Source of the DNA: Amycolatopsis aidingensis
Lineage (GTDB): Bacteria > Actinomycetota > Actinomycetes > Mycobacteriales > Pseudonocardiaceae
Reading direction: 5' to 3'
NCBI RefSeq assembly: GCF_018885265.1
Contig: NZ_CP076538.1
Coordinates: 5,430,001 to 5,494,000 of the forward strand
Length of the DNA stretch: 64,000 nt
Position numbers and translations under genes: made by a program
In this document: in pieces, positions 14,181 to 35,665 of the stretch
How the letters are laid out: the number at the start of each line of letters is the position of its first letter
Numbering within the stretch: the stretch's first letter is position 1
Notes under the pieces: generated by a model
Told to the model about the DNA's origin: nothing
Database searches by the model: none
The model's input: the letters and a program-made list of their open reading frames with translations, nothing else

Positions 14181-14246
14181 GGCAGCTCCGTCCCTGTGCG
14201 TTCAACGGCCCCCTTGTGCCACGTCTTGCGTGGCTTGATGTATTCA

Positions 14247-14257
14247 GTATACAGTAT
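14247..14257. promoter_or_regulatory. Probable GntR operator (panE-like/DUF6457 divergent region)
   Basis: GTATACAGTAT is the reverse complement of ATACTGTATAC and is nearly palindromic. The same 11-mer family occurs at 14617-14627, 24185-24195 and 28990-29000, and in a weaker form at 24085-24095. It sits in the divergent promoter region, 67 bases from the panE-like start and 50 bases from the DUF6457 start. Confidence 0.65.
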
Positions 14258-14306
14258 GAGACTATTCGGTCAATGCCGCCGATGCCGTTCGCAGCGGGAG
14301 GACAGG

Positions 14307-14549
14307 ATGAACGCACTCGCGGAATGGACCTCGGCGGCATGCTCCGACCTCGGGCTGACCGAGGAGCCCGACCGCATGCTGATCGCGGATATCGCGCGGC
14401 ACGCGAGCCGGGCGGTCTCCGCCCCGGCCGCGCCGGTGACCGCATACCTGTTCGGCCTCGCGGTCGGGCGCGGGCTGCCGCCCGCGGACGCCGCCCGGCG
14501 GCTCACCGCACTGGCCGCACGGTGGCGCGGAATCGACTGGCGCGACTGA
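14307..14549 (+). CDS. Small DUF6457 domain protein
   Basis: The 80-residue protein (MNALAEWTSAACSDLGL to the end) matches the pattern of DUF6457, a helical domain found alone or at the C-terminus of MobA-like nucleotidyltransferases. There is an AGGA ribosome site just upstream. The role is unknown. It lies between two copies of the cluster operator, 115 bases before the ThDP enzyme gene, so it may be expressed with the catabolic cluster. Confidence 0.7.
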   Translation: MNALAEWTSAACSDLGLTEEPDRMLIADIARHASRAVSAPAAPVTAYLFGLAVGRGLPPADAARRLTALAARWRGIDWRD

Positions 14550-14616
14550 GGAAACCGACTCTTCGAAGATCACCCCTGGACAAGCGGGCAAGGGCGGAGC
14601 AGTATAAGTACATATC

Positions 14617-14627
14617 GTATGCAGTAT
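14617..14627. promoter_or_regulatory. Probable GntR operator upstream of the ThDP enzyme operon
   Basis: GTATGCAGTAT is the exact reverse complement of the copy in front of sucC (24185-24195). It lies 37 bases upstream of the chosen start of the ThDP enzyme gene. An in-frame ATG at 14619 falls inside the operator, which argues against that ATG being the true start. Confidence 0.65.
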
Positions 14628-14663
14628 TCGGTAGCCACAATGCGTGAGGAGATGAGGACGCAC

Positions 14664-16349
14664 ATGGCAGTCGACGGCGAACCAGAGCTGATCTCCGGCG
14701 GCCACCTGGTGGCGAAGGCACTGAAGGCCGAGGGCGTCGAGGTCGTCTTCACCCTCTGCGGCGGGCACATCATCGACATCTACGACGGCTGCGTCGACGA
14801 AGGCATCGACGTGATCGACGTACGGCACGAGCAGGTGGCGGCGCATGCGGCCGATGGCTACGCGCGGATCACCGGCAGGCCCGGCTGCGCCGTGGTCACC
14901 GCGGGCCCTGGCACCACGGACGCGGTCACCGGGGTGGCGAACGCGCTGCGCGCGGAAAGCCCGATGTTGCTGATCGGCGGGCAGGGGGCCCTGACCCAGC
15001 ACAAGATGGGCTCGCTACAGGACCTGCCGCATGTGGACATGATGAACCCGATCACCAAGTTCGCCGCCACGGTGCCCGCCACCGAGCGGGTCGCGGACCT
15101 CGTGTCGATGGCCTTCCGGGAGTGCTACCACGGTGCGCCGGGTCCCTCCTTCCTGGAGATCCCGCGGGACGTGCTGGACGCGGAGGTACCGGCCGCGTCG
15201 GCACGGGTGCCCGCAGCAGGGCACTACCGTGCCTCGACCCGCAGTGCGGGTGACCCGGAGGCAATCGAGCGGCTGGCCGATCTGGTGGTGCAGGCGGAGA
15301 AGCCTTGCGTGCTGCTGGGCAGCCAGGTGTGGACCTGCCGGGGCACCGAGGCCGCCATCGAGTTCGTCCGCAAACTCAACGTGCCCGCCTTCATGAACGG
15401 CTCGGGCCGCGGAACCCTCGCCCCAGGGGACCCGCATCACCTGCAACTCGCGCGCAGGTATGCCTTCCAGAACTCGGACCTGATCATCATCGTCGGCACC
15501 CCCTTCGACTTCCGGATGGGCTACGGTCGCAGGCTCTCCAGCGCGGCCACGGTGGTGCAGGTCGACCTCGACTACCGCACGGTGGGCAAGAACCGGGACA
15601 TCGACCTCGGCATCGTTGGCGACGCCGGACTGGTGCTGTCCGCGGTGACCCAGGCCGCCTCCGGCCGGGTGGACAACGGTGCCGTGGCGCGCAAGGCTTG
15701 GCTGGACGAACTGCGCGGGGTGGAGACCCAGGCCTACGAGAAGCGGCTGCCCCGGCAGCTGTCCGGCTCCTCCCCGATCGACCCGTACCGGCTGGTGCAC
15801 GAGATCAACGAGTTCCTCACCCCCGACTCGATCTACGTCGGGGACGGCGGGGACATCGTGACCTTCTCCGGTCAGGTGGTGCAACCGAAGGCGCCGGGTC
15901 ACTGGATGGATCCCGGTCCACTCGGGACACTCGGGGTCGGTGTCCCCTTCGTGCTGGCCGCCAAGTACGCCAGGCCGGAGAAGGAGATCGTCTGCCTGTT
16001 CGGTGACGGGGCGTTCAGCCTCACCGGCTGGGACTTCGAGACGCTGGTGCGGTTCAACCTTCCGTTCATCGGCATCATCGGCAACAACTCCTCGATGAAC
16101 CAGATCCGCTACGGGCAGATCCAGAAGTACGGCGCGGACCGCGGCAGGGTGGGCAACACCCTCGGCGATGTCCCCTACGGCGAGTTCGCCCGGATGCTGG
16201 GCGGCTACGGCGAGGAAGTGACCGATCCCGCCGGCATCCGGCCCGCGCTGGAACGGGCCCGCGAGTCCGGCAAACCGTCCCTGATCAACGTCTGGGTCGA
16301 TCCCGAGGTCTACGCCCCGGGAACGATGAACCAGACCATGTACAAGTAA
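14664..16349 (+). CDS. ThDP-dependent enzyme, oxalyl-CoA decarboxylase/2-hydroxyacyl-CoA lyase-like
   Basis: The 561-residue protein has the three-domain ThDP enzyme layout: catalytic Glu56 in RHEQ, and the cofactor motif beginning GDG at residues 447-449 and ending NN about 26 residues later. The segment GSLQDLPHVDMMNPITKFAA resembles the equivalent part of 2-hydroxyacyl-CoA lyases and oxalyl-CoA decarboxylase more than acetolactate synthase. The formyl-CoA transferase gene is 21 bases downstream, which favours oxalyl-CoA decarboxylation to formyl-CoA. ATG 14664 is preferred because GAGG precedes it closely; earlier ATGs lie in or next to the operator. Glyoxylate carboligase-type chemistry remains possible. 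Confidence 0.72.
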   Translation: MAVDGEPELISGGHLVAKALKAEGVEVVFTLCGGHIIDIYDGCVDEGIDVIDVRHEQVAAHAADGYARITGRPGCAVVTAGPGTTDAVTGVANALRAESPMLLIGGQGALTQHKMGSLQDLPHVDMMNPITKFAATVPATERVADLVSMAFRECYHGAPGPSFLEIPRDVLDAEVPAASARVPAAGHYRASTRSAGDPEAIERLADLVVQAEKPCVLLGSQVWTCRGTEAAIEFVRKLNVPAFMNGSGRGTLAPGDPHHLQLARRYAFQNSDLIIIVGTPFDFRMGYGRRLSSAATVVQVDLDYRTVGKNRDIDLGIVGDAGLVLSAVTQAASGRVDNGAVARKAWLDELRGVETQAYEKRLPRQLSGSSPIDPYRLVHEINEFLTPDSIYVGDGGDIVTFSGQVVQPKAPGHWMDPGPLGTLGVGVPFVLAAKYARPEKEIVCLFGDGAFSLTGWDFETLVRFNLPFIGIIGNNSSMNQIRYGQIQKYGADRGRVGNTLGDVPYGEFARMLGGYGEEVTDPAGIRPALERARESGKPSLINVWVDPEVYAPGTMNQTMYK

Positions 16350-16370
16350 CGGCTCGAGGGGAGAACCGCC

Positions 16371-17600
16371 ATGCGAAAGGCACTCGAGGGTGTTCGTGTT
16401 CTCGACATGACGCATGTCCAGTCCGGGCCGTCCTGCACGCAGATCCTGGCCTGGCTGGGCGCGGATGTGGTCAAACTGGAGGCGCCCACCGGGGACATCA
16501 CCCGCAAGCAGCTGCGCGATCTGCCCGATGTGGACAGTCTCTACTTCACGATGCTGAACTGCAACAAGCGCAGCATCACGCTGAACATGAAGAGCGACCG
16601 GGGCAAGGAACTGTTCACCGAGCTGGTCTCCCGGTTCGACATCCTGGCCGAGAACTTCGGTCCCGGCGCGGTGGACCGGATGGGCTTCAGCTGGGAGCGG
16701 CTGCAGGAGATCAACCCGCGACTGATCTACGCCTCGATCAAGGGTTTCGGCGAGGGGCCGTACACCCATTTCAAGGCCTACGAGGTGGTGGCACAGGCGA
16801 TGGGCGGCTCGATGAGCACAACCGGTTTCGAGGATGGCCCCCCGCTGGCAACCGGCGCCCAGATCGGGGACTCCGGCACCGGCATCCACACCGTGGCCGG
16901 CATCCTCGCGGCGCTGTACCAGCGCGAGCACACCGGCAAGGGCCAGCGGGTCACGGTGGCCATGCAGCACGCGGTGCTCAACCTCTGCCGGGTGAAGCTG
17001 CGCGACCAGCAACGGCTCACCCACGGGCCGCTCGCGGAGTACCCGAACGAGGAGTTCGGCGAGGAGGTCCCGCGTTCCGGCAATGCCTCGGGTGGCGGTC
17101 AACCGGGCTGGGCGGTCAGGTGTGCGCCGGGCGGACCCAACGACTACATCTACGTGATCGTCCAGCCCGCGGGCTGGGAGCCGATCAGCAGGCTGATCGG
17201 CAGGCCGGAGCTCGCCGACGACCCGGAGTGGAACACCCCGGAGGCCCGACTATCCAAACTGGACAAGATGTTTCAGATGATCGAGGAGTGGAGCAGCGGG
17301 CACGGCAAGTGGGAGGTGCTGGCGAAGCTCAACGAGCACAACATCCCGTGCGGTCCGATCCTGTCCACCAAGGAGATCATCGAGGACGAGTCGCTGGCCG
17401 CCAACGAGATGGTCGTGCGGGTCCCGCACCCCGAGCGCGGCGAGTTCGCCACGGTGGGATGCCCGATCAAGCTGTCCGAATCCTCGGTCGACGTCACGCC
17501 ATCCCCGCTGCTCGGCGAGCACAACGAGGACGTCTACCTGCATGAGCTCGGCCTCGCCCCCGGCAGGCTCGCGGAGCTCGAAGCGAACGGAGTGATCTGA
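16371..17600 (+). CDS. frc: Formyl-CoA:oxalate CoA-transferase (class III CoA-transferase)
   Basis: Frc moves CoA from formyl-CoA (or another donor) to oxalate. The 409-residue protein follows the known Frc sequence closely: [10 protein letters not shown] at the N-terminus, [16 protein letters not shown], catalytic Asp167 in IGDSGTG, LRDQQRL, the flexible glycine loop [10 protein letters not shown] and IPCGP. GGGGAG precedes the ATG. It follows the ThDP enzyme by 21 bases and is three bases ahead of the acyl-CoA synthetase, so the three form one operon. Related enzymes use succinyl-CoA as donor, of interest because a sucCD pair lies in the same cluster. Confidence 0.87.
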
Positions 17601-17603
17601 TCG

Positions 17604-19748
17604 ATGACCGCGGACAACAGTGACACCGCCGCCGTACGGGCGGTCCTCGACCAGGCCCGCGCCGAGGGAAGGCAGGCCCTGACCGCCCCCGAGGGCAGGC
17701 GGATCTGCCAGGCCTACGGCATCCCCACCCCGGCCGAGGGGCTGGCCACCACGGCGGAGGAGGCGGCAGGCCTTGCCGAGGAGATCGGCGGACCGGTGGC
17801 CTGCAAGATCGTGTCCCCGGAGATCCTGCACAAGACCGAGGCGGGCGGCGTGCTCGTCGGGGTCGAGGGCGCGGCAGCGGCCCGCGAGGCCTTCGAGACG
17901 ATCGTGGCGAACGCCCGGCACTACGACTCCGCGGCCACGATCACCGGGGTCCAGGTGCAGCAACTGCTCGGCGATGGCCAAGAGGTCATCATCGGCGCCA
18001 CCACCGATCCCACCTTTGGCAAGATCGTGGTCTTCGGGCTCGGCGGGGTGCTGGTCGAGGTACTCAAGGACGTCACCTTCCGGCTCGCCCCACTCCAGCC
18101 CGAGGAGGCGCGGGCCATGGTGGAGGACATCGAGGCCGCCGAGGTGCTACGCGGGGCCCGTGGTGCCGACCCGGTCGACCTCGACGCGCTGGCCGAGCTG
18201 GTCCGCACGGTGTCGGAGCTGGTCACCGACTTCCCGGAGATCAAGGAGATCGACCTGAACCCGGTGTTCGCCACGGCGGGCGGAGCGAGCGCGGCCGACA
18301 TCCGGATCCTGGTCGAGACCGGCGAGATCGTCCAGCCGGTGCGCTACTCACGGGAGGAGATCCTGCGGGTGCTGGACCGCATGATGAACCCCCGCTCGGT
18401 GGCGGTCATCGGGGCGTCCGCCGAGGAGGGCAAGATCGGCAACTCGGTGCTGAAGAACCTGATCAACGGCGGGTACGCGGGCGAGATCTACCCGATCAAC
18501 CCCAAGGCCGACGACATTCTCGGCCGCAAGGCATACCCCTCCATCGCCGAGGTGCCAGGGGAGGTGGACGTGGCGGTGTTCGCCGTGCCGGCGAAGTTCG
18601 TGCCGGACACCCTGGAGGCCTGCGGGCAGAAGGGGGTGCCTGCCGCGGTGCTGATCCCTTCCGGGTTCGCCGAGACCGGCGATGTGGAACTGCAGCACCG
18701 GGTGGTGGAGATCGCCCGCAGGAACGGGACCAGGCTGCTCGGCCCGAACATCTATGGCTACTACTACACACCGCAGAACCTGTGCGCGACCTTCTGCACA
18801 CCGTACGATGTGCGCGGCGGAGTGGCACTGACCTCGCAGAGCGGTGGCATCGGGATGGCGATTCTCGGCTTCAGCCGCACCACCAAGATGGGCGTCTCGG
18901 CCATCGTGGGGCTCGGCAATAAGTCCGATGTGGACGAAGATGACCTGCTCACCTACTTCGAGCAGGATGAGAACACCCAGTGCGTGGCGATGCACCTTGA
19001 GGACCTCAAGGACGGCAGGGCCTTCGTCGACGCGGCCAAGCGGATCACGAAGAAGAAGCCGGTGGTGGTGCTGAAGGCTGGCCGAACCGCGCTGGGGGCA
19101 CGGGCGGCCGGCTCGCATACCGGCGCGCTGGCCGGTGATGACCGGGTGTACGACGACATCCTGCGCCAGGCCGGGGTGGTCCGCGCGCCCGGCCTGAACG
19201 AGATGCTCGAGTACGCCAGGGGCCTGCCGATGCTGCCCACCCCGCAGGGTGAGAACGTCGTGATCATCACCGGAGCGGGTGGCTCCGGGGTACTGCTCTC
19301 CGACGCCTGCGTGGACAACGGCCTGTCCCTGATGGACATACCGCCGGATCTGGACGAGTCGTTCCGGCGGTTCATCCCGCCGTTCGGCGCGGCGGGCAAC
19401 CCGATCGACATCACCGGCGGGGAGCCGCCGTCGACCTACGAGGCGACGATCCGGTTGGGGCTGGAGGACCCACGGATCCATGCCCTGATCCTCGGGTACT
19501 GGCACACGATCGTCACCCCGCCGATGGTGTTCGCCGAGCTGACCGCCAGGGTCGTCGAACAGGCGCGGGCGCAGGGAATCGACAAGCCGGTTGTCGCCTC
19601 GCTCGCCGGGGACACCGAGGTGGAGAAGGCCTGCGAGTACCTGTTCGACCACGGGATCGTGGCCTACCCGTACACCACGGAACGACCGGTGGCCGTGCTC
19701 GGCGCGAAGTACCAGTGGGCCCGCTCGGCCGGGCTGCTCGGCGGCTGA
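17604..19748 (+). CDS. Acetate--CoA ligase family (ADP-forming) acyl-CoA synthetase
   Basis: The 714-residue fusion has an N-terminal ATP-grasp domain (about residues 20-235, VACKIVSPEILHKTEAGGV), a CoA-binding Rossmann domain (about 255-380, NPRSVAVIGASAEEGKIGNS) and a succinyl-CoA-ligase-like domain with the phospho-His region AGSHTGALAGDD (His505). Such enzymes make an acyl-CoA from acid, CoA and ATP, giving ADP and phosphate. The domain order, ATP-grasp first, is the reverse of some relatives. The gene is three bases after frc. The substrate may be oxalate, formate or another acid; sequence alone cannot decide. Confidence 0.82.
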   Translation: MTADNSDTAAVRAVLDQARAEGRQALTAPEGRRICQAYGIPTPAEGLATTAEEAAGLAEEIGGPVACKIVSPEILHKTEAGGVLVGVEGAAAAREAFETIVANARHYDSAATITGVQVQQLLGDGQEVIIGATTDPTFGKIVVFGLGGVLVEVLKDVTFRLAPLQPEEARAMVEDIEAAEVLRGARGADPVDLDALAELVRTVSELVTDFPEIKEIDLNPVFATAGGASAADIRILVETGEIVQPVRYSREEILRVLDRMMNPRSVAVIGASAEEGKIGNSVLKNLINGGYAGEIYPINPKADDILGRKAYPSIAEVPGEVDVAVFAVPAKFVPDTLEACGQKGVPAAVLIPSGFAETGDVELQHRVVEIARRNGTRLLGPNIYGYYYTPQNLCATFCTPYDVRGGVALTSQSGGIGMAILGFSRTTKMGVSAIVGLGNKSDVDEDDLLTYFEQDENTQCVAMHLEDLKDGRAFVDAAKRITKKKPVVVLKAGRTALGARAAGSHTGALAGDDRVYDDILRQAGVVRAPGLNEMLEYARGLPMLPTPQGENVVIITGAGGSGVLLSDACVDNGLSLMDIPPDLDESFRRFIPPFGAAGNPIDITGGEPPSTYEATIRLGLEDPRIHALILGYWHTIVTPPMVFAELTARVVEQARAQGIDKPVVASLAGDTEVEKACEYLFDHGIVAYPYTTERPVAVLGAKYQWARSAGLLGG

Positions 19749-19852
19749 GAAACCGGCTGCTCCCAGCGGCCGGCCCGCCCGCCGGCGAGGAAGAACGCGA
19801 GACGTAGGGGTCCCCACGCGCACATGCATGAGTCCTACGATCAGGAGGTCCA

Positions 19853-21388
19853 ATGGTGGATTCCTCGAACGCCCCTGCCGCGGGCTCGTCCAGAAGTGGT
19901 TCCGAGAACGACGCGGCCACCGGGGTAGCGCCGGACAAGGACGAGTCCGCACGGGTGTGGCGAGCGGGCCGGCTCGACCCGATGCCCATCCGTAAACTTC
20001 CCGAGGCCCCGCCCGCCATTCACCTGCTCGGCCCCACGGTCTTCCTGGTCGCGCTGGGTGTCGGGATGGGCGAGTCCTACATGTGGCCGAGACTCGTGCT
20101 GGTCTTCGGCCCCGAGATCCGCTGGTTGTTCCTCGTCGGCGTGACCCTCCAGGCCTTCGTGATGCTGGAGATGGCGCGTTACGCGATGGCCACCGGGGAG
20201 AGCATCTTCACCGGCGCGGCGAGGGTGTTCAAACCGATCATGTGGTTCTTCTTCGTGGTGGCGATACTGGTCTATATCTGGCCAGGCCACCTATCCGCGG
20301 GAGCCGCCGCGCTGGAGGAGATCACCGGTATCCCCTGGGTGGTCAGTGCCTGTGTCGGGCTGGTTCTGGTCGGCATCGTGTTCAGCCTGGCCAGGGTGAT
20401 CTACAACCTGCTGGAGAACGTGCTGTCCATCCTGATCGGGACGCTCGTGGTCGGCACCGCGGTGGTCGCCTCGCTGGTCGGCAGCTGGGGCGACCTGGCG
20501 AGCACGCTCAGCGGCATGTTCCACTTCGGATACTTCCCTTCCGAGGCATTGTCCAGCGCGTGGTTCCCGATCCTGGTCGGTTCCGTCGCCTTCGCCGGCC
20601 CCTCCGGCATGCAGCAGATGTGGTACACCCTGCACCTGCGGGACAGCGGTGCCGGGATGGGTGCGCACATTCCACGGGTGCGCGGGCTGCGGCACGCCGG
20701 TGAGGAAGAGGCGATGCCCTCCCGCGGTTTCATGTTCGACACCGAGGACCCCAAGGAGATGGCCAAGTGGCGGGGCTGGCGCCGCTGGGTCACCTTCGAC
20801 GCGCTGCTGCTGTTCTGGGGAATCACGATGCTGGTGACGGTCTCGTTCACCGTGCTCGCCCAGGCGGCGAACCGGGAGAACCCGAACGTCAAGGCACTGA
20901 TCGAGGGCGGCGACCGGGACGCCGCGCTGGGTGCGATGTCGGACGCGTTCGCCTCGGTCGGCGGTCCGGTGCTCGGCGGGGTGTTCTTCGGGTTCATCGC
21001 GCTGATCGGGATCAACGCCACTCTCGGGCTGTTCGACTCCTTCTCCCGCGGGCAGGCGGACATGACGTACTTCTTCGTGCCCGGCGCACGCAAGTTCAAG
21101 ATGTCGCACCTCTACGCAGGGTTCCTCTGGGGCGTGATCGTCTTCGGCATCCTGATCCTGTTGTTCGGGCCTGCCGACGGGCCGAGCGGCGTGCTGGACA
21201 TCCTGGCGTTCCTTTCCACCTTTGCGATGGGCGCGTACTGCGTCGTGCTGCTGCTGGTGAACAACCGGATGTTGCCGAAACCGATCCGGCCGAGGTGGTG
21301 GGCCAACGTGATCATCGGCTTCGGCGCGGTGTTCTACCTCGGCATGCTGTTCTACAGCCTGGTCCGGTTCGGCGTCGTGGTGAGTTGA
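19853..21388 (+). CDS. Nramp-like multi-spanning transporter
   Basis: The 511-residue membrane protein has a hydrophilic 50-residue N-terminus and about eleven hydrophobic segments. GVGMGESYMWPRLVLVFG at the first helix resembles the unwound helix of Nramp/LeuT-fold carriers, but the metal-binding DPGN is not present, so the substrate may not be a divalent metal. AGGAGG stands four bases before the ATG. It follows the acyl-CoA synthetase by 104 bases in the same direction and is probably an uptake carrier of the catabolic cluster. The assignment to Nramp is by pattern only. Confidence 0.6.
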   Translation: MVDSSNAPAAGSSRSGSENDAATGVAPDKDESARVWRAGRLDPMPIRKLPEAPPAIHLLGPTVFLVALGVGMGESYMWPRLVLVFGPEIRWLFLVGVTLQAFVMLEMARYAMATGESIFTGAARVFKPIMWFFFVVAILVYIWPGHLSAGAAALEEITGIPWVVSACVGLVLVGIVFSLARVIYNLLENVLSILIGTLVVGTAVVASLVGSWGDLASTLSGMFHFGYFPSEALSSAWFPILVGSVAFAGPSGMQQMWYTLHLRDSGAGMGAHIPRVRGLRHAGEEEAMPSRGFMFDTEDPKEMAKWRGWRRWVTFDALLLFWGITMLVTVSFTVLAQAANRENPNVKALIEGGDRDAALGAMSDAFASVGGPVLGGVFFGFIALIGINATLGLFDSFSRGQADMTYFFVPGARKFKMSHLYAGFLWGVIVFGILILLFGPADGPSGVLDILAFLSTFAMGAYCVVLLLVNNRMLPKPIRPRWWANVIIGFGAVFYLGMLFYSLVRFGVVVS

Positions 21389-21395
21389 GGTGACC

Positions 21396-21941
21396 ATGCA
21401 CAGCACACGACCGCAGCAGACCCGGTTGCGCCGCAACGCCGAACTCGCACTGCCCGGTGGCACCGTCGGTCTGGTCGCCGGGGTGGCGGCCGGTGGGCTG
21501 GCCGCGCTCGTCGGCCAGCCCACCGGGTGGGCGCTGGTCACCGCCCTGTCACTCGGTGTCCCGCTCGCACTGCTCGGCGGAGGCTACGGACTGCTGATCG
21601 CCTACGGCAGGGTCCGGCTCGGCGGCTTCGCGCCGGCGGCGTTGTTCTGGCTGGTGGGTTTCCCGCTGGCCAGGCTCGCGCACGAGCTGCTCACGCACCT
21701 CGTGCTGACCGGGCGCCCCGAGCTGCCACCCGACCTGCTCGGTTTCCTCGCCTACCAGGGCCTGGTAAGCGCCGGCTTCGCAATCGGGTTCCTCTGGCTA
21801 CACGAGCGGATCGCGCCCCGGTGGTGGTTGCGGATCGCCCCGCACAACCCGTACGCCGAGCGGATCCTGGCGGCCTACGCCGCACACGCCAAGGCACTGC
21901 ACGACGCGAAGCAGGCCAGGCGGCGCGCGAAGGTCTCCTGA
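21396..21941 (+). CDS. Small membrane protein, unknown function
   Basis: The 181-residue protein has about four hydrophobic segments (for example GTVGLVAGVAAGGLAALVG and PAALFWLVGFPLARLAHELL) and a basic C-terminal tail (HDAKQARRRAKVS). It starts eight bases after the Nramp-like gene, with a GAGG ribosome site, so the two are probably cotranscribed and the product may be an accessory subunit. I do not recognise a family. A perfect 16-bp hairpin follows its stop. Confidence 0.65.
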   Translation: MHSTRPQQTRLRRNAELALPGGTVGLVAGVAAGGLAALVGQPTGWALVTALSLGVPLALLGGGYGLLIAYGRVRLGGFAPAALFWLVGFPLARLAHELLTHLVLTGRPELPPDLLGFLAYQGLVSAGFAIGFLWLHERIAPRWWLRIAPHNPYAERILAAYAAHAKALHDAKQARRRAKVS

Positions 21942-21961
21942 CCACCTGCCCACCGTCCCCC

Positions 21962-21995
21962 GTCACCACGCGCCCGGAGCCGGGCGCGTGGTGAC
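21962..21995 (+). terminator. Strong hairpin after the Nramp-like transporter operon
   Basis: The 16-base arms (21962-21977 and 21980-21995) are perfectly complementary around a 2-base centre. There is no T-run, as is common in high-GC actinobacterial terminators. It lies 20 bases after the membrane-protein stop and 20 bases before terC, so it should separate the two transcripts or act as an attenuator. Confidence 0.7.
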
Positions 21996-22015
21996 CCGAT
22001 CCTGCCGAGGTGAGC

Positions 22016-22993
22016 ATGAACGTTCCCGTCTGGTTGTGGCTGGCCACCGTCGCCGGCCTGTGCGCCGTCATCGGTTTCGACTTCTATCTGGTCTCCCGCA
22101 AACCGCGGGAGCCGTCGATGCGGGAGTGCACCGCCTGGGTATGCGGTTACGTGAGCCTGGCCGTCCTGTTCGGACTCGGCGTGCTGCTCACCGCGGGAGC
22201 CCGGCGCGGCGGCGAGTTCTTCGCAGGCTGGATCACCGAGTACTCGCTGTCGGTGGACAACCTGTTCGTTTTCGTGATCATCATGAGCACCTTCACGGTA
22301 CCGCGGGTCTACCGGCAGCAGGTGCTGCTGATCGGTATCGTGCTGGCGCTGCTGATGCGCGGCGCCTTCATCGCGATCGGCGCGCAGGCGATCGCCCGGT
22401 TCGACTGGCTGTTCTACCTTTTCGGTGCCTTCCTCATCTACACCGCGTGGAAGCTGATCCGGCACAAGGACTCCGAGGAGGAGGAGTTCTCGGAGAACGC
22501 CGTGCTCCGCACCGTCAAACGGGTGTTACCCGCCACCGAGACCTACCACGGCACCTCGCTGGTCACGAAGCTGGACGGACGCCGTGTGGTGACCCCGATG
22601 CTGATTGTGATGGTGGCGATCGGCACTACGGACCTGTTGTTCGCGCTGGACTCCATTCCGGCGATCTTCGGATTGACCAAGGAGCCCTACCTGGTCTTCA
22701 CCGCGAACGCCTTCGCCTTGATGGGCCTGCGGCAACTGTTCTTCCTGATCGGCGGGCTGCTGGACCGGCTGGTGTACCTCAGCATCGGCCTCGCCGTGGT
22801 ACTGGGCTTCATCGGCGTCAAGCTGATCCTCGAGGCCCTGCACCACGATGGTGTGGGCTGGGCGCCGGAGATTCCGATCCTCGGCTCCCTTGCCGTGATC
22901 CTCGGAACCCTCGCCATCACCACCGTGGCGAGCCTGGTGAAGGGCCGGCGCGAGCGCGGCCGCGATCGGGATCAGGACGATGCGGTCGTGTGA
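22016..22993 (+). CDS. TerC/Alx family integral membrane protein
   Basis: The 325-residue protein has the TerC pattern: about eight or nine membrane helices, with the conserved acidic ITEYSLSVDNLFVF and the second TDLLFALDSIPAIFG motif, each carrying the Asp proposed to bind a metal ion. The family includes manganese exporters that also help load exported metalloproteins. ATG 22016 follows GAGG closely. It is separated from upstream genes by a strong hairpin; a TerC relative occurs near lexA in mycobacteria too, so it may belong to the backbone rather than the oxalate set. Confidence 0.9.
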   Translation: MNVPVWLWLATVAGLCAVIGFDFYLVSRKPREPSMRECTAWVCGYVSLAVLFGLGVLLTAGARRGGEFFAGWITEYSLSVDNLFVFVIIMSTFTVPRVYRQQVLLIGIVLALLMRGAFIAIGAQAIARFDWLFYLFGAFLIYTAWKLIRHKDSEEEEFSENAVLRTVKRVLPATETYHGTSLVTKLDGRRVVTPMLIVMVAIGTTDLLFALDSIPAIFGLTKEPYLVFTANAFALMGLRQLFFLIGGLLDRLVYLSIGLAVVLGFIGVKLILEALHHDGVGWAPEIPILGSLAVILGTLAITTVASLVKGRRERGRDRDQDDAVV

Positions 22994-23169
22994 ACGTCAC
23001 CGCGGTTCTCGCGGGCCCGCCTGCGCAGGAAGTCCTCGACATCCGCGGTGGGATTCCGCCGCTGTTGTTCCAGCGCGGTGGCGAGGCCGAGGCCGAGCCT
23101 TCTGCCGTCGGCACTGGCACCCCGCGGCGCGCGGGTCAGCCAGGCACGGAACTCACTCCAGGTACGCAT
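22972..23169 (-). CDS. Small basic protein of 65 residues, unknown function
   Basis: The gene begins with ATG at 23169 and is preceded by GGGAGGTGA, one of the strongest ribosome sites in the window, which is the main reason to accept it. The product is short and basic (MRTWSEFRAWLTRAPRG, with VEDFLRRRARENRGD near the end). It ends inside the 3' end of terC on the opposite strand, a 22-base overlap. No family is recognised. It lies downstream of the GntR gene on the same strand. Confidence 0.6.
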   Translation of the reverse strand: MRTWSEFRAWLTRAPRGASADGRRLGLGLATALEQQRRNPTADVEDFLRRRARENRGDVHTTASS

Positions 23170-23224
23170 TTCGCTGTCACCTCCCTTTCTTCAGGCACAA
23201 CCATGTTCAGGACATCACCGGGTA

Positions 23225-23250
23225 GCCGGGCGCCGCCACTCGGCGCCGGC
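23225..23250 (-). terminator. Imperfect hairpin downstream of the GntR gene
   Basis: GCCGGGCGCCG (23225-23235) pairs with CGGCGCCGGC (23241-23250) except for one bulged G, around a 5-base loop. It lies 17 bases past the stop of the GntR gene and before the small 65-residue gene on the same strand. Confidence 0.45.
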
Positions 23251-23266
23251 GAAAATGCCGGGATAC

Positions 23267-24010
23267 TTACGCTTGCGGGCCGATACGCCTGCGCCGGGTG
23301 CGGACCTGCGCAGGCTGTTCCTCGGCAGCGCGGTTCGCCCGCTGCTCGAGGTAGGACTGCCGGGTTCGCTCGGTGTGCTCGCGCATGGTCTGCGCCGCCG
23401 CTTCGGAGTCGCCCCGCTCGATGGCCTCGACCAGCTTCTCGTGCTCTTCCCAGGACGCCTGACCACGATGACGGGCAATCGGGGTGTAGTACCAGCGCAC
23501 CCTGCGATCGACCTGGTTCACGAAGTCGATCAGGACCCCGTTTCCGGACAGTTCGGTGACCGCCCGGTGCAGCTCGGCGTTGGCCGCCACCATGGCGTCG
23601 ACGTCGTCGTCAGCCACCGCGGCCTCGCCCCGGGTACAGATCTCCTTCAACAGCCGCACCCCTTCGGAACCCGCCTGCTGCGCCGCCAGGCGCGCCGACT
23701 CCCCTTCGAGCACGGAGCGCACCGCCAGCAGCTCGTCGACCTCGGCATCGGTGGGCGCGTGGACGAAGGCCCCATAGCCTGGCCGCAGGTCCACCCATCC
23801 CTCCGAGTTCAGCAGCTGCAGGGCCTCACGGATCGGCTGGCGGGACACGCCCAGCGTCTCCGCCAGCTCGCTCTCCACCAGATGCTGCCCCGGGGCGAGC
23901 TGACGAGAGATGATCATCTCCTGTATCGCCTGGTAGACGCGCTCACGCAAGGGAGCAGGCCGGTTGATCCGGTGTGCCGACATATCCTGTGGCAACTCAC
24001 TCGGGGGCAT
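23267..24010 (-). CDS. FadR-subfamily GntR transcriptional regulator
   Basis: The 247-residue protein has an N-terminal winged helix (LRERVYQAIQEMIISRQLAP, ESELAETLGVSRQPIREALQ) and a C-terminal all-helical FCD ligand domain (about residues 95-220). FCD regulators usually respond to small organic acids. It is divergent from sucC. A perfect inverted repeat TACAATGA-AC-TCATTGTA (24093-24110) and a copy of the cluster operator lie between, suggesting autoregulation and local control. ATG 24010, with GGAG seven bases ahead, is preferred over upstream ATGs that would place the start in the operator region. The C-terminal tail is Arg-rich. Confidence 0.9.
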   Translation of the reverse strand: MPPSELPQDMSAHRINRPAPLRERVYQAIQEMIISRQLAPGQHLVESELAETLGVSRQPIREALQLLNSEGWVDLRPGYGAFVHAPTDAEVDELLAVRSVLEGESARLAAQQAGSEGVRLLKEICTRGEAAVADDDVDAMVAANAELHRAVTELSGNGVLIDFVNQVDRRVRWYYTPIARHRGQASWEEHEKLVEAIERGDSEAAAQTMREHTERTRQSYLEQRANRAAEEQPAQVRTRRRRIGPQA

Positions 24011-24084
24011 TGCGAACTCCAAGAACTCGCGACGGGACCCGGCTCTGCCGGGAACGAAGTCCAGTCGACCACTGCGTCGACTGC

Positions 24085-24110
24085 CTACAGCATACAATGA
24101 ACTCATTGTA
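24085..24110. promoter_or_regulatory. Operator region of the GntR gene
   Basis: TACAATGAACTCATTGTA (24093-24110) is an 8-bp perfect inverted repeat with a 2-base centre. It overlaps CTACAGCATAC (24085-24095), a weaker form of the 11-bp cluster motif. It lies 75-100 bases upstream of the chosen GntR start. Confidence 0.6.
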
Positions 24111-24184
24111 CGGAATGTGCACTTCGGGTGATGTCCACCACCCCTCGTAATTGTTCACCCTTCTGGGTAGTCGCCATGGACTCC

Positions 24185-24195
24185 ATACTGCATAC
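24185..24195. promoter_or_regulatory. Probable GntR operator upstream of sucC
   Basis: ATACTGCATAC ends 17 bases before the sucC ATG, overlapping the region where the promoter must be. A possible -10 TACACT (24200-24205) follows, which would put the transcription start at or next to the ATG; no ribosome site is seen, so sucC may be leaderless. Confidence 0.65.
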
Positions 24196-24212
24196 AGTCT
24201 ACACTAGGCTAT

Positions 24213-25382
24213 ATGGACCTCTACGAGTATCAGGCGAAGGATCTCTTCGCTGCCCATGGAGTGCCGGTGTTGCCGGGTTCTGTGGCGGAGACTGCCGAGC
24301 AGGCTCGGGTTGTGGCCGAGGGGGTTGGTGGTCCGGTGGTGGTGAAGGCTCAGGTGAAGACCGGGGGTCGGGGTAAGGCCGGTGGGGTGAAGCTGGCTGG
24401 GGATCCTGGGGAGGCTGAGGCGAGGGCTGCGGGGATTTTGGGGATGGATATCAAGGGGCACCGGGTGTATCGGGTGCTGGTGGCTGAGGCGTCGGAGATC
24501 GCGGAGGAGTATTACTTCTCGTTCCTGTTGGATCGGGCGAATCGGACGTTTTTGGCGATGGCCTCGGCTGAGGGTGGGGTGGAGATCGAGCAGTTGGCTG
24601 TTGAGCGTCCGGAGGCGCTGGCGCGGGTGCCGGTGGATCCGCTGGCCGGGGTGGATCTGGAGCGGGCGCGGGAGATCGTGCGGTTGGCGCGGTTCCCGGA
24701 GGTGGTTCAGGAGGCGGCCGCCGAGGTGGTGGTGCGGCTGTGGGAGACGTTCGTGGCCGAGGATGCCACGTTGGTGGAGGTGAATCCGCTGGTGCGGGAT
24801 CCGCAGGATCGGATCATCGCGCTGGATGGCAAGGTCACCGTGGATGACAATGCCGCGTTCCGGCAGCCCGGGCATGCGGGGCTGGTGGATGAGCGGGCGG
24901 AGGACCCGCTGGAGGCCAAGGCCAAGGCCAAGGACCTGAACTATGTGAAGCTGGACGGGCAGGTCGGGATCATCGGGAATGGTGCCGGGCTGGTGATGTC
25001 CACCCTGGATGTGGTTGCTTACGCGGGTGAGCGGCATGGTGGGGTCAGGCCGGCGAACTTCCTGGATATCGGGGGTGGCGCCTCGGCGGAGGTGATGGCC
25101 GCGGGGCTGGATGTGATCCTGGGTGATCCGGATGTGCGCAGTGTGTTCGTGAACGTGTTCGGCGGGATCACCGCCTGTGACGCGGTCGCCACCGGGATCG
25201 TGGAAGCGCTGCGGATCCTCGGGGACGAGGCCGCCAAGCCGCTGGTGGTGCGGCTGGACGGCAACAATGTCGAGCAGGGCCGGGCGATCCTGGCCGAGGC
25301 GAACCACCCGCTGGTCACGGTGGTGGACACGATGGACAACGCGGCGGACAAGGCCGCCGAGCTGGCAGCGGCAGGAGCCTGA
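24213..25382 (+). CDS. sucC: Succinate--CoA ligase beta subunit (cluster-specific paralogue)
   Basis: The 389-residue protein is a full-length SucC: ATP-grasp start [59 protein letters not shown] and the [16 protein letters not shown] helix. With SucD it interconverts succinate (or a similar acid) and its CoA ester at the cost of a nucleoside triphosphate. The gene's first two thirds use mostly G- or T-ending codons, unlike its neighbours. The operator overlapping its promoter links it to the GntR regulon, suggesting this is not the housekeeping TCA copy. Malate or another dicarboxylate could be the substrate. Confidence 0.9.
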
Positions 25383-25387
25383 GCACC

Positions 25388-26293
25388 ATGGCGATTTTTC
25401 TCAACAGTGACAGCAAGGTGATCGTGCAGGGCCTGACCGGGTCGGAGGGCATGAAGCACGCCACCAAGATGCTGGCCTCCGGCACCACGATCGTGGGCGG
25501 GGTCAACGCCCGCAAGGCCGGGCAGAGTGTGACCATCCACGACCAGGAGCTGACCGTGTACGGCACGGTGGCCGAGGCCATGGCCGCCACCGGCGCCGAC
25601 GTCAGCGTGATCTTCGTGCCGCCGAAGTTCGCCAAGGACGCCGTGATCGAGGCCATCGACGCGGGCATCGGGCTGGCCGTGGTCATCACCGAGGGCATCC
25701 CCGTGCACGACGCGGCCGCCTTCTGGGCCCACGCCGTGGCCACCGGCAACCGCACCCGCATCATCGGCCCCAACTGCCCCGGGATCATCTCCCCCGGACA
25801 GTCCAACGCCGGCATCATCCCCGCCACCATCACCGACACCGGCCGCATCGGCCTCGTCTCCAAATCGGGCACCCTGACCTATCAGATGATGTACGAACTG
25901 CGGGACATCGGGTTCTCCACCGCCATCGGCATCGGCGGCGACCCCATCATCGGCACCACCCACATCGACGCCCTGGCCGCCTTCGAAGCCGACCCCGACA
26001 CCGACGTCATCGTCATGATCGGCGAAATCGGCGGCGACGCCGAAGAACGCGCCGCCGACTACATCCACCACCACATCAGCAAACCCGTCGTCGGCTACGT
26101 CGCCGGCTTCACCGCCCCCGAAGGCAAAACCATGGGCCACGCCGGCGCCATCGTCTCCGGCTCCAGCGGCACCGCCCAAGCCAAAAAACAAGCCCTCGAA
26201 ACCGCAGGCGTCAAAGTCGGCAAAACCCCCACCGAAACCGCCGAACACGCCCGCGAGCTCTACAAGAGCCGAACGGCTCACCGCGACCACTAG
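25388..26293 (+). CDS. sucD: Succinate--CoA ligase alpha subunit (cluster-specific paralogue)
   Basis: The 301-residue protein has the CoA-binding Rossmann region ([15 protein letters not shown]), [13 protein letters not shown], and the phospho-histidine His251 in [19 protein letters not shown]. It begins five bases after sucC, with AGGAG inside the sucC end. The codon bias changes along the gene: the last third uses almost only C- and A-ending codons (GAA, AAA, CCC, GTC), the opposite of the sucC start. Both catalytic halves are intact. Confidence 0.92.
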
Positions 26294-26406
26294 GTATATC
26301 CCGGATCGGCACCCCGACGGCACGGATTGCTGACCGTCACGCCCACGGTGAGACTGGAATCCGGGTACGGGAGATCCCCGGACCACGGTGGCGTGAAGGA
26401 GCGGCA

Positions 26407-27576
26407 ATGCAGCTCGCCCGTCGGATGAACCGCCTCGGAACGGAGTCGGCCTTCGAGGTACTGGCCAAGGCAAAGGCACTGGAAAAGGACGGCAGGGAGA
26501 TCATTCACCTGGAGATCGGGGAACCTGATTTCGATACGCCGGGCCATATCGTCGCGGCCGCGCAGCAGGCATTGAGCGAGGGACACACCCACTACGTTCC
26601 CGCTCCCGGTATTCCGGAACTGCGGAACGCGGTCACCGACTTCCTGACCCGCAACGAAAGGCTGGCGGCCTCGCCCGAACAGGTGGTGGTGACCCCCGGC
26701 GCCAAGCCGATCATGTTCTTCACCATCCTCGCGCTGTGCGAGGAGGGCGACGAGGTGCTGTACCCCGATCCGGGGTTTCCCATGTATGCCTCGATAACCC
26801 GCTTCGCAGGCGCCACACCGGTCGCGGTACCGCTGCGCGAGTCCAATGGCTTCACCATCGACCCCGGTGAGCTGGACTCGCTCGTCACCGACCGCACGAA
26901 ACTGCTGATCCTGAACTCCCCGCACAACCCCTGTGGCAGTTCACTGACCAAGGAGCAGGTCGAGGCCATCGCCGAGATCGCGCTCCGACGTGACCTGCTC
27001 GTCCTCTCCGACGAGGTGTACTGGGCACTTCGTTATGGCGGTGAGCAGCACAGCGTGCTCGACGTCCCGGGGATGGCCGAGCGGACCATCCTGCTCGACG
27101 GCTGGTCGAAGACCTTCGCGATGACCGGCTGGCGCCTGGGATTCGGGGTGTTCCCCACGCCGCTGGTGGAACCGGTCACCAGGCTCGCGATCAACTCCGT
27201 GTCCTGCACCTCGGCCTTCAGCCAGCATGCAGCGATCGCGGCGTTGACCGGACCATGGGAGGAGGTGGAACGGATGCGGTCGGCATTCGCCGAGCGGTGC
27301 GAGGTGATCACCTCCGGCCTGAACGCCATTCCCGGGGTCTCCTGCGTACGCCCCGGCGGTGCGTTCTACGCCTTCGCCAACATCACCGAACTCGGGCGGA
27401 CGGCCGCGGAGCTGTCCGATCTGTTGCTGGAACGGGCCGGGGTAGCGGTCACTCCGGGGACCGCGTTCGGCGGGTACGGCGAGGGGTACATCCGGTTCTC
27501 CTACGCCAATTCCACCGAGAACATCACGGCCGCGCTCGCCGCTGTCGAGCGGGTGGTGCGGGATGAGCTGTCGTAG
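26407..27576 (+). CDS. Class I/II (fold type I) PLP aminotransferase
   Basis: The 389-residue enzyme has the aspartate-aminotransferase-type pattern: HLEIGEPDFDTP, NSPHNPCGSS, SDEVYWALRYGG, the PLP lysine Lys235 in SKTFAMTGWRLG, and the substrate-carboxylate Arg in YIRFSYANS. AAGGAG precedes the ATG. It follows sucD by 113 bases. In the cluster it could transfer amino groups to glyoxylate or another 2-oxo acid, but the substrate is not readable from sequence. Its TAG stop lies inside a dispersed repeat. Confidence 0.85.
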   Translation: MQLARRMNRLGTESAFEVLAKAKALEKDGREIIHLEIGEPDFDTPGHIVAAAQQALSEGHTHYVPAPGIPELRNAVTDFLTRNERLAASPEQVVVTPGAKPIMFFTILALCEEGDEVLYPDPGFPMYASITRFAGATPVAVPLRESNGFTIDPGELDSLVTDRTKLLILNSPHNPCGSSLTKEQVEAIAEIALRRDLLVLSDEVYWALRYGGEQHSVLDVPGMAERTILLDGWSKTFAMTGWRLGFGVFPTPLVEPVTRLAINSVSCTSAFSQHAAIAALTGPWEEVERMRSAFAERCEVITSGLNAIPGVSCVRPGGAFYAFANITELGRTAAELSDLLLERAGVAVTPGTAFGGYGEGYIRFSYANSTENITAALAAVERVVRDELS

Positions 27577-27616
27577 ACGGGTTCGGCGACCGCGCGCCTT
27601 CTTCAACACAGCCTAG
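27573..27616. repeat. Dispersed intergenic repeat, copy 1
   Basis: This 44-base element (GTAGACGGGTTCGGCGACCG at its left end, AACACAGCCTAG at its right end) recurs at 55420-55463 with about four mismatches and two single-base gaps. It spans the stop codons of the convergent aminotransferase and MFS genes, so it supplies both TAG stops and the whole 36-base gap. Confidence 0.75.
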
Positions 27617-28968
27617 AAAGAGGGTGATGGCGGCAGCACGGTCGGCATCCCCGGCCGCCGGAGCGTCCGGACGAGTACCGCGCCGACCAGGCTCAGCACC
27701 GCCACGATCGGGAGGGCCATGACCGTTCCCGCGGGGTAGGCGAAGATCATCGCCAGGCCGATGCCGATCAGGCCACCGGAAGCCTTCGCCCCGTAGAACA
27801 GGCTGAAGATGGGCAAACCCGGGTGCTCACCGAAATGCGCCTCGGCCAGACCGGGCAGCACCGCATAGCAGGTACCCGCGCTCGCGCCCGCCACGAAGGC
27901 ACCGGCCAGCAGCAGCCACCACAGGCCGTGCAACCCGGCGAACAGCAGCACCAGCTGGGCCGCGGCCCCCGCCGCCAGTGCCCGCCGCACCAGCCGAGTT
28001 CGGCCCAACCGGTCCCCCGCCCAGCCTGCGGCCAGCCGCGCCAGCCCGCTCGCGCCTGCCAGCACCCCGACGGCGGCGGCCGCCATCGCCGGCCCCGCGC
28101 CGTCCCGCGTGGCCAGCAGCGCCAGGTAGGCAAGGTCGAACAGGGAGACCGCGGCGGCACAGGCCACCGCGAGATAGAGCAGGGCGGACATCCGGGTGCG
28201 CAGTACCTCGCCGGGCGCATACCGGCGCACTGCGGGCTTGTTGTTCCGCAGGCCGGGGTTGATCGATTTGTCGACCGCCCACCGTCGCGGGTCGATATGC
28301 GCGGGCCACCAGCCCTCCGGCGGATCGCGCAGCACGGCGGCGGCCGCACCGGCCACCAGCAGCACCGCTCCCCCGGACAGCACGAGCAGCAGGTCGACCC
28401 CGCCCGTGCCGGCGAGCCAGCCAGCCAGCACGAGGAACGGAATCGCGCCGTAGGCGAACGCCCCGCTCACGAACGAGGTCCGCGCCGGTCGCTCCGGGTA
28501 CCACTGGGCGACGACACCGAGCGCCGTCCCGTAGATCAGCCCGGCCCCGAGGCCGCCGAGCACGGCGTGGTTCAGCAGCGCCACCAGGAAGCTGCCCGAG
28601 GCGCCGAGAGTGATCAGGCCGTTCGCGGTGAGCACCGCACCCGCCGCCATCGGCACGACCGGCGCCAGCCGCAACCGGTGTCGCAGCCGGGCCACGGGAT
28701 ACACGGTGAGGCTCTGGCAGCAGGTCCAGATCGCGAGCACGGCCAGCGCCTCGGTGACCGTCCAACCGTGCAGCTCACCGAGGACCGGGATCAGCGCGCC
28801 GTAGCCGTACTGCCCGAGGCTTGCCACCAGCATCGCCGCCCAGGCCGCCCACAGCATCCAGCCCCGGGACCGCCCGAGCAGTTCCCGATCGCTCACGCCG
28901 ACGCGATGCCGCCTGCCATAGAAGTCACGTACCTCGTGCGGGACGGAGGGAAAGCCGGAGCCACGCAT
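27613..28968 (-). CDS. MFS transporter, oxalate/formate antiporter-like (OFA family)
   Basis: The 451-residue protein has twelve hydrophobic segments in two halves. GLGAGLIYGTALGVVAQWYPE and the central RYAPGEVLRTR, together with the late IFSLFYGAKASGG, follow the pattern of OFA carriers such as OxlT. It probably imports oxalate or exchanges it for formate. ATG 28968 has GAGGTGG just upstream. The operator copy at 28990-29000 lies 22 bases before the start, putting the gene in the same regulon as the catabolic enzymes although it is on the opposite strand. Confidence 0.8.
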   Translation of the reverse strand: MRGSGFPSVPHEVRDFYGRRHRVGVSDRELLGRSRGWMLWAAWAAMLVASLGQYGYGALIPVLGELHGWTVTEALAVLAIWTCCQSLTVYPVARLRHRLRLAPVVPMAAGAVLTANGLITLGASGSFLVALLNHAVLGGLGAGLIYGTALGVVAQWYPERPARTSFVSGAFAYGAIPFLVLAGWLAGTGGVDLLLVLSGGAVLLVAGAAAAVLRDPPEGWWPAHIDPRRWAVDKSINPGLRNNKPAVRRYAPGEVLRTRMSALLYLAVACAAAVSLFDLAYLALLATRDGAGPAMAAAAVGVLAGASGLARLAAGWAGDRLGRTRLVRRALAAGAAAQLVLLFAGLHGLWWLLLAGAFVAGASAGTCYAVLPGLAEAHFGEHPGLPIFSLFYGAKASGGLIGIGLAMIFAYPAGTVMALPIVAVLSLVGAVLVRTLRRPGMPTVLPPSPSF

Positions 28969-28989
28969 GGGACCACCTCGTGAATTTGT

Positions 28990-29000
28990 ATACTGTATCC
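28990..29000. promoter_or_regulatory. Probable GntR operator upstream of the OFA transporter
   Basis: ATACTGTATCC matches the cluster motif ATACTGYATAC at ten of eleven positions and is preceded by TTGT, extending the dyad (TTGTATACTGTAT). A second TTGTATACC half lies at 29008-29016. Confidence 0.6.
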
Positions 29001-29060
29001 AGCACCTTGTATACCACTGTGATCCAGCACACGCCAGCCCTTCGATCCGGCAACCCGAAC

Positions 29061-35619: not shown

Positions 35620-35665
35620 CACTAACCTCCGAAAGAAAGGAAAGAAAATAGAGTCGGCTGAGCTG

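Follow-up and report, generated by a model that had tools for sequence, protein, structure and literature searches.

A shared array of 7-bp-spaced boxes and its candidate GntR/FCD regulator at a predicted oxalate catabolic cluster of Amycolatopsis aidingensis

Gene content of the locus

We analysed a 64,000-nucleotide stretch of the Amycolatopsis aidingensis genome (hereafter the window; contig NZ_CP076538.1, positions 5,430,001 to 5,494,000), in which the 11-bp motif ATACTGYATAC recurs upstream of genes in a cluster that includes a GntR-type regulator. An original prediction, made from the sequence alone, took these copies to be the operator through which this regulator links the promoters of the cluster. 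Oxalate, one of the causes of kidney stones, is also a considerable source of carbon in soil. Judged by its gene families, the cluster is an oxalate pathway, comprising an Frc that scores above its model cut-off, an Oxc-like enzyme, a PanE-like reductase and a major facilitator superfamily (MFS) protein resembling oxalate/formate antiporters (OFA) (Table 1). The SucCD-like ligase and the ADP-forming acyl-CoA ligase could supply CoA thioesters.

Two of these assignments lean on context. The best model for the Oxc-like protein was PRK05858 (486 of 587), and among solved chains 2-hydroxyacyl-CoA lyases stand closest to it, ahead of chains named HACL/HACS or oxalyl-CoA decarboxylase; we take it as a divergent Oxc because its gene adjoins frc in relatives. 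The panE-like gene is read as encoding a probable oxalyl-CoA reductase because its family and context resemble those of PanE2 of M. extorquens, described in excerpts of its report as a putative oxalyl-CoA reductase that converts oxalyl-CoA to glyoxylate (PMC8411744).

Table 1. Genes, operators and a promoter-like site of the cluster (positions in the window; bit scores with model cut-offs).
Feature	Position	Strand	Basis and remarks
panE-like gene, 2-dehydropantoate reductase family; probable oxalyl-CoA reductase	13206..14180	-	NF005089 428.7 bits (cut-off 223)
Operator 1	14240..14259	.	GTATTC-A-GTATAC-A-GTATGA, three boxes; 16-bp core 14242-14257; between panE-like gene (-) and DUF6457 gene (+); same place in relatives
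Promoter-like site, panE-like gene	14246..14273	-	TTGACC, 16 bp, TATACT; second hexamer within operator 1; 1 found, shuffle mean 0.1
DUF6457 protein	14307..14549	+	PF20058 60 bits
Operator 2, upstream of oxc	14612..14636	.	(cATATC)-GTATGC-A-GTATTC-G-GTAGCC; core 14612-14627; conserved
oxc-like gene, thiamine-pyrophosphate enzyme	14640..16349	+	start 14640 or 14664
frc, formyl-CoA transferase	16371..17600	+	TIGR03253 672.4 bits (cut-off 504.2)
ADP-forming acyl-CoA ligase family protein	17604..19748	+	PF13549, PF19045, PF13607, PF13380
Nramp-like membrane protein	19853..21388	+	NF037982 473.5 bits (cut-off 50); Pfam Nramp 19.9, under cut-off 29.8
TerC-family membrane protein	22010..22993	+	PF03741
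gntR, GntR/FCD regulator	23267..24010	-	likely start 24010 from conservation and GGAG before it; mechanical reading frame starts at 24106
Operator 3, upstream of gntR	24083..24095	-	GTATGCTGTAGGC; 72 bp before likely start 24010; recurs in relatives
Operator 4, upstream of sucC	24183..24202	.	CCATAC-T-GCATAC-A-GTCTAC; core 24185-24200; ends 10 bp before sucC start; conserved
sucC-like ligase beta subunit	24213..25382	+	NF001913 515.5 bits (cut-off 370)
sucD-like ligase alpha subunit	25388..26293	+	PF02629, PF00549
MFS transporter, distantly OFA-like	27613..28968	-	TIGR00890 88.5 bits, under cut-off 374.85; MFS_1 73.7 bits
Operator 5, upstream of MFS gene	28988..29014	.	GTATAC-T-GTATCC (28988-29000) and extra GTATAC 29009-29014; 19 bp before likely start 28968

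Architecture of the operator

Three of the four copies of ATACTGYATAC that had been listed are exact, at 14247-14257 (-), 14617-14627 (-) and 24185-24195 (+), whereas the fourth, at 28990-29000, carries one mismatch (ATACTGTATCC). Additional one-mismatch readings lie at 28988-28998 (-) and 14240-14250 (-). At up to one mismatch the window holds six matches, against a mean of 0.14 and a maximum of 1 in 100 shuffles, none of which reached six; chance is an unlikely source, as had been argued. The weaker copy at 24085-24095 also proved genuine: it differs from the 11-mer by two mismatches and recurs upstream of gntR in relatives (operator 3). The copies do stand upstream of cluster gene starts, once these are read from conservation and Shine-Dalgarno sites; the mechanical reading frames of oxc (14619) and gntR (24106) begin too early, the likely starts being 14664 or 14640, and 24010, respectively.

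While an element is indeed shared by the cluster promoters, 11 bp understates it. The operator is a larger array of GTATNC-like boxes, each almost its own reverse complement, that repeat with a 7-bp period around the core ATAC-N-GNATNC-N-GTAT. This register was measured in 86 distinct sites from 80 loci of relatives (the second set below), chosen as lying within one mismatch of GTATNCWGTATNC, so that the inner columns are conserved by construction and the flanking boxes lie outside the selection. A further half-box (at least three of four letters, on either side) stood in the 7-bp register at 58 of the 86, a count raised where overlapping 13-mers of one array were both included, compared with 1 to 4 of 86 when the place was slid by 1-3 bases. 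A promoter scan covering 14180-14680 returned the promoter-like site of the panE-like gene, and GGTCAA (TTGACC on the opposite strand) occupies an equal offset in all seven DUF6457 promoter rows (host and six relatives).

Genome-wide specificity and a distant formate dehydrogenase operon

The 7,657,695-base genome contains three exact matches to ATACTGYATAC, all within the cluster. At up to one mismatch there are 12 (reversed control, 8), of which six belong to the cluster, two to the promoter of the fds operon and four lie elsewhere. The 16-bp core ATACNGNATNCNGTAT, at the same tolerance, occurs at four places (reversed control, 0), namely the panE/DUF6457, oxc and sucC operators and the fdsGBAD promoter; as this core was written after those sites had been seen, the count speaks for specificity and not for independent discovery. 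The distant fds promoter is no product of that choice, because it had already been found with the 11-mer. The genome-wide search proposed for the 11-mer thus largely bears out the prediction, with 8 of the 12 one-mismatch matches, and all four places of the longer core, in the cluster or its pathway. Operators 3 and 5 fall outside the three-box core match. With GTATNCNGTATNC, the host genome gave six matches, four in the regulon.

Two 13-mers, GGATACAGTATTC and GTATACCGTATTC, lie 59 to 32 bp before fdsG, 2.87 Mb away from the cluster. The operon encodes a NuoE-like subunit, then a NuoF-like subunit, the formate dehydrogenase alpha subunit (TIGR01591, 905.8 bits; cut-off 666.25) and FdsD (PF11390, above the Pfam cut-off), while the gamma-subunit model NF004638 was narrowly missed (191.3 vs 198 bits). 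By family and operon content, fdsGBAD is an NAD-dependent formate dehydrogenase. Apart from the host's own, 11 of 19 fds promoters of close relatives carry the site. Since the Oxc-Frc route ends in formate, the site is what the regulator hypothesis would predict physiologically. The cluster promoters therefore share an operator as supposed, but the regulon is not confined to the cluster and includes this unlinked operon.

Several other matches were set aside. The four one-mismatch outliers of the 11-mer (405199, 932143, 2628370 and 7194813) were not counted as targets (predicted genes contain three of them, and the fourth precedes a methyltransferase gene in an intergenic region); nor was GCATCCTGTATGC at 550686, between an Na+/H+ antiporter gene and a POT transporter gene. 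The loose pattern GNATNCWGTANNC was unusable as a regulon finder, with 31 matches at 29 places in the host genome vs 21 control matches.

Conservation at operon heads

To follow the site across relatives, two overlapping sets were used. The first combined the window with fds and pnt loci and with neighbourhoods of 7 to 20 kb from 20 relatives; gene starts came from a simple gene caller. Here, 89 of 122 operon-head promoters had a site at up to one mismatch, counts that are partly dependent because divergent genes share stretches, many gntR stretches being credited with the site beside sucC. By head gene, the site preceded oxc in 14/18, DUF6457 in 7/8, panE in 9/10, sucC in 13/15, gntR in 17/21, MFS in 9/13, fdsG in 12/20 and pntAA in 8/17 (17 of 25 pnt loci; 8/25 over all). 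No site appeared in 93 stretches of inner genes (frc, acyl-CoA ligase, Nramp-like, sucD, hyp183 and TerC), even with two mismatches allowed (the latter read on one strand), and inner fds genes had next to none at up to one mismatch (fdsA 0/22, fdsB 1/24).

The second set, from a regulator-alignment scan, comprised the best 80 of 495 relatives and a GntR-less locus (L196), and drew on Prauserella, Amycolatopsis, Actinophytocola, Nonomuraea, Saccharopolyspora, Pseudonocardia, Nocardiopsis, Kribbella, one Mycolicibacterium, one Streptomyces and others. An oxc or frc gene lies within the examined stretch at 65 of the 80. Heads had the site in 206 of 270 cases at up to one mismatch and 261 of 270 at up to two, against 3 of 289 and 19 of 289 for inner genes (hyp183 accounting for 14 of the 19); all three inner matches at one mismatch belong to frc, at loci without a recognised oxc. 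For oxc itself the figures were 46 and 56 of 57, the sole miss at two mismatches being L196. One operator linked to the cluster promoters, as originally proposed, is thus kept at operon heads, and hardly inside operons, across relatives.

The regulator and its co-occurrence with the operator

The gntR product scores 74.5 bits against Pfam GntR (cut-off 27) and 107.2 bits against FCD (cut-off 24.3), which places it in the GntR superfamily and its FCD subfamily; against the NanR NCBIfam model it scores 101.8 bits, under the cut-off of 260. Six helices in the FCD domain are characteristic of the VanR group and seven of the FadR group. The structure model of the regulator (predicted local distance difference test score, pLDDT, 90.3) has six helices after the wing. 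Residues N124, H128, H170 and H192 (first-row numbering) are invariant in 18 of 18 rows (host and 17 homologs) and align with the Zn ligands of Atu1419; a metal site of three His and Asn/Asp is reported for several, not all, VanR-group members (excerpts of PMC7797058). Sequence and model together place the protein, with its predicted metal site, in the VanR group of FCD regulators rather than in the FadR group suggested by the earlier label 'FadR-type'.

A relative of the regulator (E value 1e-50 or better) is present in 75 of 200 family genomes, host included. In these 75, GTATNCNGTATNC has 242 matches (reversed control, 56; median 3 per genome), compared with 65 (control, 43; median 0) in the 125 genomes without it, an enrichment in favour of a link between the operator and the GntR protein. 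The oxc gene (E value 1e-200) was found in 2 of 80 GntR-less genomes examined. One (G010) has no site in front of oxc. The other (G103) has sites at oxc, which runs to the contig end, and our guess is that its regulator may merely be missing from the assembly.

Proposed mechanism

We read the motif as the operator of the gntR product (23267-24010), which would repress its own gene and an oxalate catabolic regulon that includes the distant fdsGBAD, and put the probability of this at roughly 0.86; binding, repression, effector and stoichiometry are what we infer. The predicted link between GntR protein and operator draws support from specificity, conservation, co-occurrence and the unlinked fds target, while the regulator group, the size of the element, one of its copies and the extent of the regulon had to be corrected.

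The regulon would cover uptake (MFS), CoA chemistry (frc, acyl-CoA ligase and sucCD-like ligase), the decarboxylation of oxalyl-CoA (oxc) and, probably, its reduction (panE-like), with the remote fdsGBAD burning formate. Two or three GTATNC-like boxes, spaced by 7 bp, would lie on or near each core promoter; with no inducer, dimers would occupy them and block RNA polymerase, and when oxalate is present a pathway metabolite would free the dimers. The TATACT inside operator 1 and the closeness of operator 4 to the sucC start codon fit such blocking. The effector may be oxalate, acting via the FCD metal site, which is attractive because oxalate is a good metal-ion binder and the pocket holds a conserved metal site; oxalyl-CoA and formyl-CoA are alternatives, and the pathway would accommodate a CoA thioester or formate equally well. 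From the residues ahead of the winged helix and the tandem boxes, as in NanR, we propose by analogy that dimers would pack cooperatively on two or three boxes. Through a shared switch of this kind, a single GntR-type repressor very probably controls induction of the entire oxalate-to-energy pathway in concert.

A broader proposal, which we consider less likely than not, is that one metal-dependent FCD repressor responds to oxalate and, in several actinobacterial families, governs as a master switch an energy regulon running from oxalate through formate to NAD(P)H, extending in some lineages to pntAA-AB-B and a tungsten/molybdenum module, via a cooperative 7-bp-box operator undescribed for the group.

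Alternatives and opposing evidence

The alternative that deserves most attention is activation, or dual regulation, by the regulator bound to these boxes. The spacing between best site and predicted start does range widely, from overlap to more than 200 bp, in part because some starts are miscalled and divergent genes share regions; the sites, however, lie on or next to likely core promoters, and the FCD proteins with related sites, Atu1419 (PMC7797058) and NanR (PMC8012715), are described as repressors in the parts of those reports drawn on, which makes the alternative unlikely. The operator could also be genuine yet serve a different FCD regulator, or two paralogs: a second regulator, 52% identical and with a three-box site of its own, exists in one relative (G029), and GntR-like proteins are many in each genome (58 first-look candidates in the host). 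We judge this quite improbable, given that gntR sits among the sites and has a recurrent site of its own, and that the GntR-less G010 has oxc but no site.

It is very improbable that the motif is a core promoter element (a TATACT-like -10) or the site of a special sigma factor. TATACT within operator 1 does score as a -10 hexamer with TTGACC 16 bp upstream, yet that overlap is expected of a blocking repressor, the boxes have near two-fold symmetry and a 7-bp period, only four places in the genome carry the core, and the presence of sites follows the gntR gene. Chance repeats maintained through common descent are next to negligible as an explanation; relatives do have the cluster in common by descent, but the shuffles, the unlinked fds site in host and relatives and the near absence of sites at inner genes all speak against them.

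Several observations weigh against the repressor-operator reading itself. On the side of the pathway, the Oxc-like protein scores under both oxalyl-CoA decarboxylase cut-offs (NF006721, 249.7 vs 557 bits; TIGR03254, 228.8 vs 739.4 bits), and the MFS protein stays below the OFA cut-offs, among them that of the oxalate/formate antiporter model TIGR04259 (57.7 vs 335 bits). On the side of the operator, the P value for co-occurrence, 5e-19, overstates independence because regulator-bearing genomes are related to each other; a single genome (G131) supplies 26 of the 242 matches, the highest of the 200; six GntR-less genomes have at least three matches; two of the six host GTATNCNGTATNC matches (2161038 and 7194811) are inside predicted unrelated genes; and 8 of the 19 close fds relatives are without the site. 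The host's own pntAA-AB-B was rejected as a regulon member, with no site at up to two mismatches (L160), and another FCD paralog could share the site.

Relation to known systems and significance

PmiR of Pseudomonas aeruginosa serves the 2-methylisocitrate pathway. This regulator (PDB 7xp0/7xp1) thus acts in a different pathway from the present one. Atu1419 of Agrobacterium fabrum is described as a VanR-group FCD repressor controlling a hydroxycinnamic acid degradation region, the operator there being one 10-mer, ATGTATACAT, whose copies are separated by 190 bp; the boxes here are 7 bp apart (excerpts of PMC7797058). For E. coli NanR, an N-terminal extension is reported to let three dimers occupy a (GGTATA)3 operator cooperatively (excerpts of PMC8012715). 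NanR and the present regulator are both FCD proteins with tandem short repeats and N-terminal residues ahead of the winged helix, whereas the repeat sequence differs and NanR serves the sialic acid pathway (PMC8012715). Two or three short repeats at fixed spacing describe the present operator as well, and we use this likeness as a mechanistic analogy only.

Oxc-Frc catabolism with PanE2 and formate dehydrogenase, as described in excerpts of PMC8411744 and PMC12927642, involves the same reactions as those proposed here for frc, oxc, panE-like and fds; a difference is that the oxc here scores under the Oxc model cut-offs. The main text of PMC12927642 contains neither 'regulat' nor 'GntR'. In the open-licence literature, judged by titles and abstract openings (subscription journals lying outside this scope), we found no described GntR regulator of the Oxc-Frc pathway in actinobacteria, and literal searches there for the operator words returned nothing relevant. 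The kind of regulator is familiar, and the regulon and the 7-bp box array are apparently undescribed.

The oxalate cluster is present in many actinobacteria. As the Oxc-like enzyme misses both Oxc models, annotation based on cut-offs could overlook such a pathway. The operator offers a sequence tag for pathway genes, as it singled out formate dehydrogenase at an unlinked locus, and transhydrogenase and tungsten genes in relatives; the regulator is a candidate oxalate or formate sensor, and the system provides a test of FCD dimer packing on boxes 7 bp apart.

Further operators in relatives and neighbouring genes

Outside the host, the operator precedes pntAA-AB-B, encoding a proton-translocating transhydrogenase, in relatives (8 of 25 loci); it was noted before this operon at L151-L156, L159, L174 and L176, and in two genomes (G049, L174; G081, L176) pntAA-AB-B with the operator adjoins the MFS gene. 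It also occurs at operons of tungsten/molybdenum type, whose genes concern the cofactor, tungstate-type transport and an aldehyde:ferredoxin-oxidoreductase (AFOR)-type protein accompanied by formate-dehydrogenase-like subunits (L176 at 3935 and 14454; L182 at 6552; L190 at 7048). Both groups of loci were found partly by motif scanning and are leads only. L176 (G081) has a run of MobA-type, AFOR-type, formate-dehydrogenase-like, NuoEF-like and MoeA-type genes with a binding-protein gene, L182 (G115) has formate-dehydrogenase-like genes directly after the AFOR-type gene, and at L190 (G073) the operator stands at a tungstate-type ABC transporter. In L191 (G039) an operator lies also at 14731.

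At L189 (12974-15408), a second regulator paralog, 52% identical and with its own site, lies beside an FdhD gene and a DUF6457 gene, a context hinting at a formate-dehydrogenase role for DUF6457. In L180 (11519-12994; G163), a SelB-like gene stands between operator 1 and DUF6457 (TIGR00475, 111.7 bits, under the cut-off of 242.25). The operator directly precedes an aldehyde dehydrogenase gene in five relatives (L181 at 9853, L183 at 7141, L185 at 7350, L186 at 6369 and L188 at 6851); the L181 protein, the one of the five that was scanned, resembles succinic semialdehyde dehydrogenase, under the cut-off.

Beside the cluster, the window encodes a protein with ALF, AbfB and LGFP domains (29123-31315) and a 1262-residue alanine-rich protein with no Pfam match (31834-35622).

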